49,182 nt of DNA from Deltaproteobacteria bacterium (GTDB lineage Bacteria > Desulfobacterota > BSN033 > UBA1163), in the NCBI GenBank assembly GCA_016875255.1, contig VGRU01000003.1, positions 1 to 49,182 on the forward strand, read 5' to 3'. Positions 8,132 to 32,784 of this stretch are shown piece by piece. Below the pieces are notes generated by a model. The model saw only the letters and a list, made by a program, of their open reading frames with translations. It had not been told where the DNA came from and searched no databases. The position numbers and the translations under genes were made by a program. The first letter of the stretch is position 1; every line of letters starts with the position of its first letter.

Positions 8132-9562
8132 ATGATTAAATCAAATCAAAAATACAGGATCGAAAAAGATTCAATGGGACCTGTCAGGGTTCCCAGAGAG
8201 GCTTATTATGGCGCTAACACGCAGAGGGCGGTGGAGAATTTTCCCATAAGCGGATACCGGTTCGGAAGGGAACTGATTTATGCCCTGGGCCTCATCAAGT
8301 ATGCCTCAGCCAGGGCGAACGCAGAGCTGGGCCTCCTTGAAAAGAGGATGGCCAGGGCCATTGAGCAGGCCTCGTATGAAGTGATGCAGGGAAGATGGGA
8401 TGAGCAATTTGTGATCGATGTTTTCCAGACCGGCTCCGGCACCTCGACTCACATGAATGCCAATGAAGTGATCGCCAACCGGGCGAATGAAATCTTAGGG
8501 GGTAAAAAAGGAATCTACAAGTCGGTCCATCCCAATGACCATGTCAACCTGTGCCAGTCCAGCAACGATATCTTCCCTTCTGCCATTCATATCGCCGCCG
8601 TCACCCTGCTTCTGGAAAGACTTCTGCCTGCCTTAAGAGACCTCCATCAGGCGCTTAAGTCCAAGGCTCAGGAGTTTTATCCTATTCTCAAAATTGGCAG
8701 AACCCATCTCCAGGATGCCCTTCCCATTCGACTGGGCCAGGAGTTTGAGGGATATACACAGCAAGTGAGGCTCGGCATCTTTAGAATTCTAACCGCTATG
8801 GGATCCCTTTATGAACTTCCTCTGGGCGGGACGGCTGTTGGAACAGGAGCCAATACCCACCCGCGGTTTTCAAGAAAAGCCATCTCCATCATCAACAAAA
8901 CGATCAGAGGACAGTTCCGTAAGGCGACCTGCCCTTTCGAAGCTCAGGGAGCCCGGGATGCTTCTGTGGAGATGAGCGGGGCTTTGAAGACCGTGGCGGT
9001 CAGTCTCTTTAAAATCGCCAATGACATCCGGTGGCTGGGTTCGGGTCCCCGTTGTGGGATTGGAGAAATTCACCTCCCGGAAACTCAACCTGGCTCCTCC
9101 ATGATGCCCGGAAAGGTCAACCCGGTGATCCCCGAATCGATGATCCAGATCTGCGCCCAGGTGATTGGAAATGATTCGGCCATCACTCTGGGGGGTCTTA
9201 GCGGCTATTTTGAGCTCAACACGATGATGCCATTGATCGCCCACAATCTCCTCGAATCGATCTGGCTCCTTGCCAATGGCGCCGAAAATTTCAATCAAAG
9301 ATGTGTTAAGGGATTGAAGGCAGATCCGGAACGATGTGAAGAGATGATTGAAAAAAGCTTAGCCTTAGTGACAGCGCTCGCTCCAAAAATCGGGTATAAT
9401 GAGGCCGCCCGTATGGCCAAGAAAGCATACAATCAGAATAAGACAATCCGGCAGGTGATGGAGAAGGAGAACATCCTCCCGAAAGCGGAGTTGAATCGTA
9501 TTCTCAACCCCCATTCCATGCTCACCCCAACGAAATCACTCCAAAACAATAAAAAAAAATAG
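8132..9562 (+). CDS. fumC: Class II fumarate hydratase
   Basis: 476 residues with GGAGG seven bases before the ATG. Motifs: TGSGTSTHMNANEVIANRA, HPNDHVNLCQSSND, the THLQDALPIRLGQEF active-site segment and the superfamily signature GSSMMPGKVNPV at residues 321-332. These favour fumarase C over aspartase or argininosuccinate lyase, although aspartase is close. The enzyme hydrates fumarate to malate without iron-sulfur. The last residues NNKKK and the stop codon are formed by the start of a palindromic repeat (AAATAGGGACACATACC), so the original C-terminus was probably altered by insertion of that element. Confidence 0.92.
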   Translation: MIKSNQKYRIEKDSMGPVRVPREAYYGANTQRAVENFPISGYRFGRELIYALGLIKYASARANAELGLLEKRMARAIEQASYEVMQGRWDEQFVIDVFQTGSGTSTHMNANEVIANRANEILGGKKGIYKSVHPNDHVNLCQSSNDIFPSAIHIAAVTLLLERLLPALRDLHQALKSKAQEFYPILKIGRTHLQDALPIRLGQEFEGYTQQVRLGIFRILTAMGSLYELPLGGTAVGTGANTHPRFSRKAISIINKTIRGQFRKATCPFEAQGARDASVEMSGALKTVAVSLFKIANDIRWLGSGPRCGIGEIHLPETQPGSSMMPGKVNPVIPESMIQICAQVIGNDSAITLGGLSGYFELNTMMPLIAHNLLESIWLLANGAENFNQRCVKGLKADPERCEEMIEKSLALVTALAPKIGYNEAARMAKKAYNQNKTIRQVMEKENILPKAELNRILNPHSMLTPTKSLQNNKKK

Positions 9563-9669
9563 GGACACATACCTTTTAATCAGTAAACCTCTTTTTATTG
9601 AAGCACTTTATTGGATTCTATCTTACTGTTTTTGATCCAAAAGAGTAAAATGGTATGTGTCCCTATTTT
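9557..9669. repeat. REPIN-like palindromic element, GGGACACATACC family, copy 1
   Basis: The left arm AAATAGGGACACATACC (9557-9573) and the right arm GGTATGTGTCCCTATTT (9652-9668) are perfect inverted repeats about 78 bp apart. The same arms occur at 19492-19584 and around the RAYT transposase at 30949-31811. The internal sequence differs between copies. It may also terminate fumC transcription, since the right arm is followed by a T-run. Confidence 0.85.
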
Positions 9670-9704
9670 TTCTCAGTAGGGAATTTTGCTTCGAGCCATT
9701 CGTT

Positions 9705-10076
9705 CTAACCTCCTTTAAGGGCATAGATTTTTGTATAACCCATCTTAATGAACTGCCATGCCATCCTGGCACTGGTGCCCTCACCGGGTCAGGCTCAGTA
9801 AAATACAAGAATTTTATTCTTAGAATACTTGTCTGACCAGAGATGAATATCCTTCTCCGGGTCCTCACGAACTGCTCCCTTGATTTTTAACTCACTTTTA
9901 TCCCAATCTTCCTTTGCACGGACATCAAGAATAATTAAATCCGGACTGCCTAACATAGACCTCAGCTCTTCCTTAGCTATTTTGGGGATATTTGAATCTG
10001 AAGCCAAATTTTGGAGACATGCCGTCACAATCAATAGAAGAAACAACCCAATGATCAATAACTTTCTCGTTTTCAT
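9705..10076 (-). CDS. Rhodanese-like lipoprotein, candidate selenoprotein with two Sec (U-x-U)
   Basis: A 93-residue frame begins MKTRKLLIIGLFLLLIVTAC, a lipoprotein signal with lipobox Cys20, and continues as a rhodanese domain (LIILDVRAKEDWDKSEL). It meets TGA right after ILVFY, then GCC, a second TGA, CCC, and continues in frame as GEGTSARMAWQFIKMGYTKIYALKGG to a TAG, the expected end of a rhodanese. Many rhodaneses have YCACP at this place, so both cysteines are replaced by UGA, giving Y-U94-A-U96-P. A GGCA/TGCC hairpin follows at SECIS distance. Full length is 123 residues in the outer cell envelope; likely persulfide or peroxide chemistry (inference). A double-nonsense pseudogene is the alternative, but exact placement on both Cys positions argues against it. 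Confidence 0.75.
9768..9779 (-). promoter_or_regulatory. Candidate bacterial SECIS hairpin of the rhodanese gene
   Basis: On the coding strand GGCA-CCAG-TGCC forms a stem-loop whose loop lies about 20 bases after the start of the second UGA (9791-9789) and about 26 after the first (9797-9795). Bacterial SECIS elements are small hairpins at this distance within the coding region. The stem is only 4 bp, so this is weaker than the thioredoxin case. Confidence 0.45.
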
Positions 10077-19491: not shown

Positions 19492-19584
19492 AAAATAGGG
19501 ACACATACCAATTTTGAGTTGAAATATTTATATTGCACCGGGTGTGTCATAAGGATCAGGGAAAATGGTATGTGTCCCTATTTT
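19492..19584. repeat. REPIN-like palindromic element, GGGACACATACC family, copy 2
   Basis: AAAATAGGGACACATACCA (19492-19510) and TGGTATGTGTCCCTATTTT (19566-19584) are perfect 19-bp inverted repeats 55 bp apart. The arms match copy 1 downstream of fumC and the repeats around the RAYT gene. The inner sequence is unrelated to copy 1. No gene is found in the rest of the spacer up to 19722, only a short Cys-containing frame that ends at the element. Confidence 0.88.
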
Positions 19585-21045: not shown

Positions 21046-21621
21046 TTACGGAATCAATGCATAGACCTGTGCTTTTTTCGTCCACTCGCTATTCGGATAA
21101 TCTTGTTGTAACGCTTTGAACCCCAACTTTAATTCATTGGGATCGTGGCTTGCTTTATATTTTGCCACTCCGAGATAATATTGAGCCTCTGGAGAGGCAT
21201 CCGTATTGGGAAAACGATCCAAAATCTTTTGGAAACATTGCATGGACGGCTCGAAATAATCCTGATCGAACTCGACCTTACCCTTACCGAGCATGATCTG
21301 GGCAATGAAATCATCCGGAGGCAGATACCCTACGAATCGATGGTGCTCGCTCCCCTCCGGATCAAGAATGATGATGGTGGGGGTCCATTTGACCGCATAG
21401 CGCTTCACCATGGCTTTGTTCTTGTTGAAGTCAATTTGAATGGGAACGAAATCATTTCCCACAGCAGCACAGACATTCGGATCGGGGTAAGTAACAGCTG
21501 CCAGCTGTTGGCACCCGATTCAGAGATTGTTATAGAAGTCCATCAAAATTAATTTTCCCCCCTTTTTCGCCTTTGCCTTCGCTGGGCTGAGAGAGGTTTC
21601 CCACTGGATTTGTCTTTCCAT
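21046..21621 (-). CDS. Thioredoxin-like selenoprotein (U-x-x-C) with TPR tail, candidate
   Basis: From ATG 21621 (GGAGG seven bases upstream) the frame reads MERQIQWETS...KLILMDFYNNL, then TGA, then IGCQQLAAVTYPDPNVC and on to PTIIILDPEGSEHHRFVGYL. Read as selenocysteine, the TGA (21522-21520) gives U34-I-G-C37 exactly where thioredoxins have CxxC, after the DF.... strand. The two halves share a frame, total 191 residues. The C-terminal ~70 residues form TPR-like helices (FEPSMQCFQKILDRFPNT, AQYYLGVAKYKAS). A perfect 6-bp hairpin follows the TGA. It is probably a thiol-disulfide or peroxide-reducing protein. No signal peptide, so cytoplasmic. A stop-codon pseudogene is the alternative. Confidence 0.82.
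21493..21509 (-). promoter_or_regulatory. Candidate bacterial SECIS hairpin of the thioredoxin-like gene
   Basis: On the coding strand AACAGC-TGGCA-GCTGTT is a perfect 6-bp stem with a five-base loop that has G at its second position. The stem begins 10 bases after the UGA. Stem length, loop size and distance fit the general description of bacterial SECIS elements recognised by SelB. Confidence 0.65.
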
Positions 21622-30781: not shown

Positions 30782-30948
30782 AACGCTAAGTCTCCGGTGC
30801 TGGAATATGAGTAATCTTCGGTTTTTTGACCATCCCAGCTCTAACAAGGTTATTCTCTACATATTTAGAGATAGCCTACCTTTCTCTACCCATCGATACC
30901 AGGTGAACAGCATCTGTACTTCTATAGCTACCCAGTTTGTCGTTTTCA

Positions 30949-31811
30949 AAATGGGGACACATACCATTTTCCAGCCACAAGTTAAAAGTGGGGCTCAGGC
31001 TATCAGGTAGTAGATAATTGGTTATCAGGGTAATAGGTAAAAATTTTATTGTTTTCCTGATATCCTGCTCCATATTTCCCTACGTTGCTTTCTTAGGTCT
31101 TCCTTTTGGCTTAAAAGATAAGCTGGAGCCCAATCTCTCAGAAAGAGTGATTAAAAATTGTGGGTCGCCTAAGGGTTTCCCCGATCTTGTCTGTTTTCTG
31201 ATCTCTTCTACAACCTTCTTCTCTTGTTCAGAACGAATGAATTCCCTGTATTCATTTAATTCGCTTATATTAAAAAGAGGCTCCTTCAGAAGGGGGTCTT
31301 TCTTACCCAAAATATGAGCCTTCGCACTGGAATAGGAGTAATCCTCGGGTCTTTGCACGATCCCTGCTCTTACGGGATTGTTCTCAATATATTTAATAAC
31401 AGCCCATAAATAGCTGTCTGCATCGATGACCGATGAATAGTATCGACATTCCCAGAGCCGACCAGTCCTTCCATTTTCTCCATTAAAGTACTTAGAATAA
31501 GAGAGGGTGATCCCCTGCATCATCTTGGGGAGAGCTTCCTCCTTCTCGGGTTTTACAAGCAAGTGGGTATGATTTGGCATGAGGCAGTATGCCAGAACAG
31601 CAGTCTCTTTCTCTTCTGAGTATTTCAAAAGGAAGGAAAGATACTTTTCGTAGTCCGCCGAGACCGTGAAGACTCTTTCCCTATTATTCCCCCTTTGAAT
31701 GATATGATGAGGAAACCCGACCCCCACTATCCTTGCGATTCGCGGCATATATTATATTAAATTCTGTTTTGGGTGTGATGTCAAGAAAAATGGTATGTGT
31801 CCCTATTTTCC
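30949..31811. mobile_element. RAYT transposase unit bounded by inverted GGGACACATACC repeats
   Basis: The left boundary carries AAATGGGGACACATACCATTTT (described here as positions 30949-30970) and the right carries TGGTATGTGTCCCTATTTT (31791-31809) in inverted orientation; the right one is followed by extra CCCTATTTTC copies. They match the arms of the elements at 9557-9669 and 19492-19584 almost exactly. The transposase gene lies between them. This is the expected relation of a REP-associated tyrosine transposase to its REPIN family. Confidence 0.8.
31080..31748 (-). CDS. REP-associated tyrosine transposase (RAYT, HUH/Y1)
   Basis: 222 residues, MPRIARIVGVGFPHHIIQRGNN at the N-terminus as in TnpA_REP proteins. 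The HUH motif is in YCLMPNHTHLLV; the putative catalytic Tyr lies in the helix QGITLSYSKYFN; the RLWECRYYSSVIDADSYLWAVIKYIENNPVRAGIV block is strongly typical. The C-terminal ~50 residues are basic. All catalytic parts look intact, unlike the broken relative at 438-1020, which belongs to a different subgroup. No clear ribosome binding site is seen. Confidence 0.92.
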   Translation of the reverse strand: MPRIARIVGVGFPHHIIQRGNNRERVFTVSADYEKYLSFLLKYSEEKETAVLAYCLMPNHTHLLVKPEKEEALPKMMQGITLSYSKYFNGENGRTGRLWECRYYSSVIDADSYLWAVIKYIENNPVRAGIVQRPEDYSYSSAKAHILGKKDPLLKEPLFNISELNEYREFIRSEQEKKVVEEIRKQTRSGKPLGDPQFLITLSERLGSSLSFKPKGRPKKAT

Positions 31812-31900
31812 CCTATTTTCCTATTTTCAAGTAGACTCTTGACAATTCCATTGGCGATGTTCACCTTTATATTGAGAGATAGGGTGAAGAAAGGAGGGCG

Positions 31901-32728
31901 ATGAATATGTATTTCGTAACCATTTCGGAAATGTACGGAACAGGTGGCGAGAAGATCGCCAGGCAGGTGGCCAAAGCGTTGGGCTACACCTTTTATGGAG
32001 AGGAGGAACTCTTCAAGGCGGCAGATGAGATGGGTTTTCTCTCCGACATCAAAAAATTGGGTGAAAAGAGCCCGGCGTTGTTAGAAAGACTTTTCAGTGA
32101 AAAGCCTAAGATTTACCTCGATCGGCTCCAGTCGGTCATCTATGAAGTGGCAAAAAAGGGCGATGCTGTATTCTTCGGCCGGGGAAGCCAGCTTCTGCTT
32201 CACTCTTTTGACTGTGCCTTCCATGTTCTCGTAACAGGCTCCCTGGAGAAGAGGGTTAAGAGGGTAATGGAGGAGAAGCAGGTCAGCAGAGAGGTGGCTG
32301 AAAGAGTGATCCACCGGTCTGACCATGACAAGAGGGGATTCATCCGGTTTGCTTTTGACGAAGACTGGTTAAATCCCAATCTCTATGACCTCATTCCCAA
32401 TACCGATAAATTGAGCGTCGATTCAGTTGCAAAAATGATCGCTGATGGAGCCCGATCGGGAGAGATAAAATCCTGTGGCATTGACTCCCTAACCAATCTT
32501 AAAAGACTCTCACTCCAACGCCAGATTGAGTCTGCGCTTCTGGAGTCCGGCCTGATGACCTCGCACATCTTCTTCACGATCGAGAATGGCGACCTGGTCA
32601 GGATTTTCGGGATGGTAAACTCTCAGGAGGAGAAGGAAAAGATCGAAATTCTTGTGAAGAAAGCCAAGGATATTAAGAGGGTGTCCAATGATCTGCTGAT
32701 CGTAAACCTTTCGATGGCCGGCCTCTGA
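31901..32728 (+). CDS. Cytidylate-kinase-like protein with C-terminal BON-like domain
   Basis: 275 residues, AAAGGAGG just upstream (ATG 31901; ATG 31907 fits the spacing better). The first ~195 residues resemble the cytidylate kinase-like family: VTISEMYGTGGEKIARQVAKAL (degenerate P-loop), YTFYGEEELFKAADEMGF, DAVFFGRGSQLLLHSF, HVLVTGSLEKRVKRVMEEKQVSREVAERVIHRSDHDKRGFIRFAF. The last ~75 residues (ALLESGLMTSHIFFTIENGDLVRIFGMVNSQEEKEKIE...VSNDLLIV) look like a BON domain. Function unknown; nucleotide phosphorylation or signalling are possible. A terminator follows. Confidence 0.82.
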   Translation: MNMYFVTISEMYGTGGEKIARQVAKALGYTFYGEEELFKAADEMGFLSDIKKLGEKSPALLERLFSEKPKIYLDRLQSVIYEVAKKGDAVFFGRGSQLLLHSFDCAFHVLVTGSLEKRVKRVMEEKQVSREVAERVIHRSDHDKRGFIRFAFDEDWLNPNLYDLIPNTDKLSVDSVAKMIADGARSGEIKSCGIDSLTNLKRLSLQRQIESALLESGLMTSHIFFTIENGDLVRIFGMVNSQEEKEKIEILVKKAKDIKRVSNDLLIVNLSMAGL

Positions 32729-32754
32729 CATCCGGATGCAGAAAGAACATCACG

Positions 32755-32784
32755 GGGCGAATCCATTTTGGATCGCCCTTTTTT
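32755..32784 (+). terminator. Rho-independent terminator after the cytidylate-kinase-like gene
   Basis: GGGCGAATCC-ATTTT-GGATCGCCC with one mismatch, immediately followed by six T residues, 27 bases past the stop codon. Confidence 0.85.

Follow-up and report, generated by a model that had tools for sequence, protein, structure and literature searches.

A rhodanese-family gene with two in-frame UGA codons, one codon apart, upstream of a single SECIS-like hairpin in a deltaproteobacterial contig

A short rhodanese gene in the 49,182-nt stretch of deltaproteobacterial DNA analyzed here (hereafter the window) carries two in-frame TGA codons at the two cysteine positions of its active-site motif. 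In the reading we favor, at a probability of about 80%, it encodes an exported, single-domain rhodanese of the NF041203 family in which selenocysteine (Sec) occupies both positions of the C-x-U motif and one SECIS hairpin serves both UGAs. The family is already known; the second Sec is the additional feature. Sec insertion itself, and the decoding of both UGAs in one chain, we infer from Sec machinery in the nearest genome, homologues with Cys or Sec at these sites, a conserved hairpin and selection in relatives, which together support the Sec decoding originally predicted. Coordinates are collected in Table 1.

The interval first proposed for the gene was right, with the gene on the minus strand; read on the plus strand, the same interval is closed by stops. 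The minus-strand translation (MKTRK...VTAC...LVFY-U94-A-U96-PGEGTSARMAWQFIKMGYTKIYALKGG) comprises 123 residues, in which the Y-C-x-C motif has become Y-U94-A-U96-P, both cysteines being replaced by in-frame TGA one codon apart. VTAC, at the end of the putative signal peptide, is lipobox-like, and its presence suggests that the protein may be lipid-anchored. The rhodanese-domain profile PF00581 scored 47.5 bits (gathering cut-off 22.2), and the predicted structure (pLDDT 84) is that of a rhodanese, near the persulfide reductase, CoADR-RHD, EanB and GlpE domains. The curated NCBIfam model NF041203, 'rhodanese-related (seleno)protein', scored 143.8 bits (cut-off 115). Table 1 of a 2026 review lists this family (rhodanese_LYCAU) as 'Rhodanese-like domain-containing protein form 3', with the motif C-x-U and one Sec (PMC13188914), and the corresponding form is given as C-x-U in the text consulted of a 2022 review (PMC9312934). 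Since the window protein has two UGAs and U-x-U, it departs from the listed form and is a variant of NF041203 rather than the form described. That the two TGAs occupy family cysteine positions was borne out by a 15-row alignment, with U94 and U96 both on invariant Cys/Sec columns, and by the relatives, which carry Cys or Sec at both sites.

Table 1. Features of the rhodanese locus and of the second selenoprotein candidate (window coordinates)
Feature	Position	Strand	Basis
Rhodanese frame, from ATG to the codon preceding TAG, 123 residues when both TGA are read as sense	9705..10076	minus	PF00581 and NF041203 matches
Lipobox-like end of putative signal peptide, VTAC, residues 17-20	10017..10028	minus	read from sequence
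First UGA (U94), Cys site of C-x-U relatives	9795..9797	minus	translation, alignment, relatives
Second UGA (U96), Sec in 78/80 relatives, at the catalytic Cys position of both 6mxv domains in the alignment	9789..9791	minus	
SECIS-like hairpin GUGCC-AGGAU-GGCAU	9758..9772	minus	conservation in relatives, folding, PMC13188914 model
TAG at conserved Trp of GGW	9702..9704	minus	alignment with relatives
Frame remainder behind TAG, 13 family-like codons + TAG	9660..9701	minus	
Thioredoxin-fold candidate selenoprotein, U-I-G-C, UGA at 21520-21522	21046..21621	minus	PF13098, homologues

The small hairpin predicted to follow the TGAs is present and conserved in relatives. A bacterial SECIS model, as outlined in PMC13188914, has an apical loop of 3-9 nt with a G at one of its first two places, an upper stem of 4-16 bp, 16-37 nt from UGA to apical loop and an MFE of at most -7.5 kcal/mol. 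The window hairpin has this geometry (loop AGGAU, 5 bp). Measured to the apical loop, the distance is 21 nt from the second UGA and 27 nt from the first, or 22 and 28 nt if the loop-closing A-U pair is counted as stem. Against the model limit, the MFE was -16.4 kcal/mol for 55 nt, -7.7 for a 20-nt hairpin and -5.9 for the bare 15 nt. Taken singly, the 55 nt of the window fold no better than shuffles (z -0.26), 7.4% of synonymous recodings of the window stretch would form the hairpin, and a competing small hairpin is visible in a 23-nt piece cut through the stem.

Across the family, the hairpin GUGCC-loop-GGCAC begins 17 nt behind the second UGA. Of 79 Sec genes, the window's among them, 77 have all five pairs together with a G at one of the first two loop places; when codons were randomly replaced by synonyms (300 trials), the full hairpin arose in a mean of 2.8 and a maximum of 9 genes. 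It also occurred in 14 of 15 further genes outside this set. The second stem pair co-varies (U-A 58, C-G 19, U-G 2), and the Ser codon within the stem is AGY in 77 of 78 cases, although Ser is encoded by TCN at 178 of 298 places in the upstream parts. Hairpin position is identical in U-x-U and C-x-U genes. Among three C-x-S paralogues the hairpin is missing in two and kept in one; it is also present in a C-x-C gene (L127).

Rfam at gathering threshold and a tRNA scan returned nothing in the window, so Sec machinery was sought in kin genomes. Parts of the window flanks are 92-97% identical to the nearest genome, G001, in which tRNA-Sec scored 76.5 bits, above the Rfam cut-off (this search covered G001 only). 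SelB was over cut-off in 12 of the 13 kin genomes searched, SelA in 8 of 8 and SelD in 7 of 8, each time including G001; all nine SelD matches over cut-off contain a TGA. The machinery that the prediction called for is thus found in the nearest genome, a relative of the window's own.

A second candidate in the window, likewise predicted, is a U-x-x-C protein with a thioredoxin fold (PF13098, 53.9 bits), and three homologues (80, 78 and 77% identity, in G013, G017 and G016) carry one TGA each. The same hairpin core is predicted, by eye, in the window and in two of the three homologues, and the 48 nt from the candidate's UGA fold better than shuffles (z -2.44). The candidate has a TPR-like C-terminus and is absent from gene calls that stop at UGA.

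The two forms of the motif were compared in overlapping surveys of a contig collection and a phylum sample. A single-sequence scan of the collection yielded no relative among 595 stretches, and an alignment-based search was used instead. Motif-independent patterns found 138 relatives there, of which the best 80 were kept, so that the resulting proportion of U-x-U (8 of 80) applies to close relatives; the others of the 80 were C-x-U (70), C-x-C (1) and C-x-S (1). The phylum sample of 395 genomes gave 83 matches over the NF041203 cut-off in 60 genomes: 62 with one TGA, 11 with two (in 10 genomes), eight with none, one with TGA and TAA and one with TAA. All 11 double-TGA matches translate as U-x-U and fall under five family codes (f1, f4, f11, f17, f95); one further U-x-U lies below cut-off (G138, f60). 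No U-x-C occurred among the translated loci, comprising the collection relatives and the fetched phylum-sample loci. One genus code, g8, is mixed, with C-x-U in G024 and U-x-U in G063 and G098. On a tree of 95 rows, 12 of them labelled from where a database protein ends, the first site would have changed at least 10 times; the tree is poorly resolved, with 12 of 92 inner branches starred.

Several g8 rhodanese frames (L104, L233, L234, L021), of both C-x-U and U-x-U form, run on into a CxxCH-containing, cytochrome-like part. Among 81 loci examined, no neighbor cluster common to all U-x-U members was found. The largest cluster, a same-strand hydrophobic protein directly upstream, was present at 16 of the 81, all C-x-U, and the protein had no Pfam match. 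Gene finders stop at UGA and hence miss both the active site and the U-x-U variant: among the 120 database relatives listed, 110 end in Y-C-x, and seven, one of them from the window itself, break off at the Y that precedes the motif.

In relatives, purifying selection acts on the sequence behind both UGAs. For six close U-x-U pairs, pN/pS behind the second UGA was 0.06, 0.31, 0.22, 0.24, 0.29 and 0.23, and before the UGAs 0.19, 0.22, 0.17, 0.28, 0.24 and 0.12. The window compared with L073 gave 0.59 behind (only 27 codons) versus 0.27 before, and L083 compared with L073 gave 0.40 versus 0.70. The expectation that relatives would not be decayed beyond these codons accordingly held, with values behind the UGAs mostly at 0.06-0.31.

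Most likely, both UGAs encode Sec, with the upstream UGA using the SECIS of the downstream one. Sec96 would then stand in place of the catalytic rhodanese cysteine, and Sec94 in place of the neighboring one. In the simplest reading, the hairpin would belong to the second UGA, for which it is placed, and the first site would switch between Cys and Sec by codon change alone. As the first UGA, 6 nt further away, is still within 16-37 nt of the loop, a Cys codon there could become Sec without a new SECIS. Such a switch would explain why U-x-U recurs, always with Sec at the second site. What it predicts (recurrent U-x-U, no U-x-C, no hairpin shift) was seen. We lean, on balance, toward the broader proposal that one SECIS hairpin drives two Sec insertions at UGA-NNN-UGA and that the upstream Cys has repeatedly become Sec in this family by codon change alone; the resulting U-x-U active site could form a diselenide and is absent from the lists in the reviews consulted. 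Because some of these nearly identical genes have one UGA before the same hairpin and others two, they offer a direct test of whether one SelB-SECIS complex can decode twice, and of the greatest distance allowed between a UGA and its SECIS. They also hint at an uncomplicated way in which active sites with several Sec residues could evolve.

Two other accounts of the UGAs were weighed. Only the second might encode Sec, the first being read as another residue or mostly terminating translation. The listing of the family with a single Sec would fit this account, as would a hairpin equally far from the second UGA in both forms; we nevertheless consider it improbable, because C-x-U relatives have Cys at the first site, several separate lineages have UGA there, and selection persists behind both UGAs. 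Reassignment of UGA throughout the organism would accommodate two in-frame UGAs within one gene, but its probability is close to nil: TGA ends 18 of 38 window genes, from which we conclude that the codon has not been reassigned, and five of twelve compared U-x-U relatives themselves end in UGA.

The end of the window copy raises a separate question. A normal stop had been predicted, but the frame is closed by a TAG at the codon that in relatives specifies the conserved Trp of GGW; past it, the reading frame stays intact (NEWLEAKFPTEKK) up to a TAG at 9660-9662. This TAG is either a nonsense allele, recently broken, or a sequence error. With such a further stop at a conserved Trp codon, the window copy may be truncated or mis-sequenced, and as the last ~14 residues, the end of the domain, are removed, its own function is uncertain; intact copies of the rhodanese exist in relatives. 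The loss of this part of the domain favors a dying gene, in which the UGAs as well as the TAG act as plain nonsense codons and at most a stump is produced. So do premature stops in other family copies, among them a TAA in L094 and L238 and one in G004:C29. We judge this account unlikely, if still deserving of weight, since both UGAs sit exactly at the Sec positions of intact relatives, the hairpin is kept and the 13 codons past the TAG are still family-like, so that decay, if any, is recent. Alternatively, the TAG might encode pyrrolysine, in which case the protein would contain two different non-standard amino acids. PylS is over cut-off in one of 17 family genomes (G010), and the text consulted of PMC8318568 describes Deltaproteobacteria that have Sec as well as Pyl; nonetheless, with no PylS over cut-off in G001, TAG ending 10 of 38 window genes and Trp at this position in relatives, pyrrolysine seems very improbable here.

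Two observations on family members concern stop codons elsewhere. L094, from a record titled Desulfacinum hydrothermale, is a C-x-U rhodanese with an internal TAA, listed with L215 and L238; premature stops hence occur elsewhere in the family. In G010 (locus L152), PylS scored 342 bits, over cut-off, and this relative may thus read both UGA and UAG as amino acids.

A segment of ~22 kb (~9540-31838), with the rhodanese gene at its left edge, has no near-identical counterpart in G001. There, contig C138 matches the left flank up to window position 9535 (96%) and, 251 bases later, matches window 31838-32784 (86%). A 20-base palindrome arm, ATGGTATGTGTCCCTATTTT, has six copies in the window where none are expected, both segment edges among them. 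These form inverted pairs at 9554-9671, 19492-19584 and 30948-31809, the first overlapping the ends of the fumarase and rhodanese frames and the last flanking an IS200-like transposase gene (31080-31748, minus strand; PF01797, 63 bits), an arrangement that we take to resemble REP-associated transposases. Should the segment be of foreign origin or wrongly joined, Sec genes are present in the next candidate kin as well: G013, G016 and G017 all have SelB, and G013, which alone was searched for SelA and SelD, has both.

Comparison with known proteins bears on function. The second Sec aligns without gaps to the active-site-loop Cys in either domain of 6mxv; in one profile alignment with the third domain of EanB, the first motif position, not the second, falls on Cys. 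By analogy, the most fitting role for the exported two-Sec rhodanese would be that of a persulfide reductase or sulfane-sulfur carrier whose center can form a diselenide. Its Sec pair would most likely alternate between a reduced form and a diselenide or selenenyl-persulfide form as it transfers or reduces sulfane sulfur outside the cytoplasm. Sud of Wolinella (1qxn), a rhodanese that the family profile matches at E 9.7e-7, serves as a working analogy, as an exported sulfur carrier; it is not known to be a selenoprotein. In the open-licence literature consulted, we found no U-x-U rhodanese, and the one UXU passage found concerns mammalian SELENOP (PMC11818150). UxxU redox motifs (Prx-like, NF041115, FmdB family), as presented in the consulted parts of PMC13188914 and PMC2398784, likewise hold two Sec per motif, but in other folds and with a two-residue spacer. 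TsoB (NF045694) is also listed as a rhodanese-containing selenoprotein with two Sec; it differs in its UxxxxU motif and in being listed as a rhodanese/DsbD fusion-like protein, and its model scored the window protein at 13.8 bits, far under the cut-off of 805. With NF041203, whose HMM cut-off it passes, the window protein shares the place of the motif, the place of the hairpin and its length, and differs in carrying U-x-U, with two putative Sec, where the listed form has C-x-U and one.
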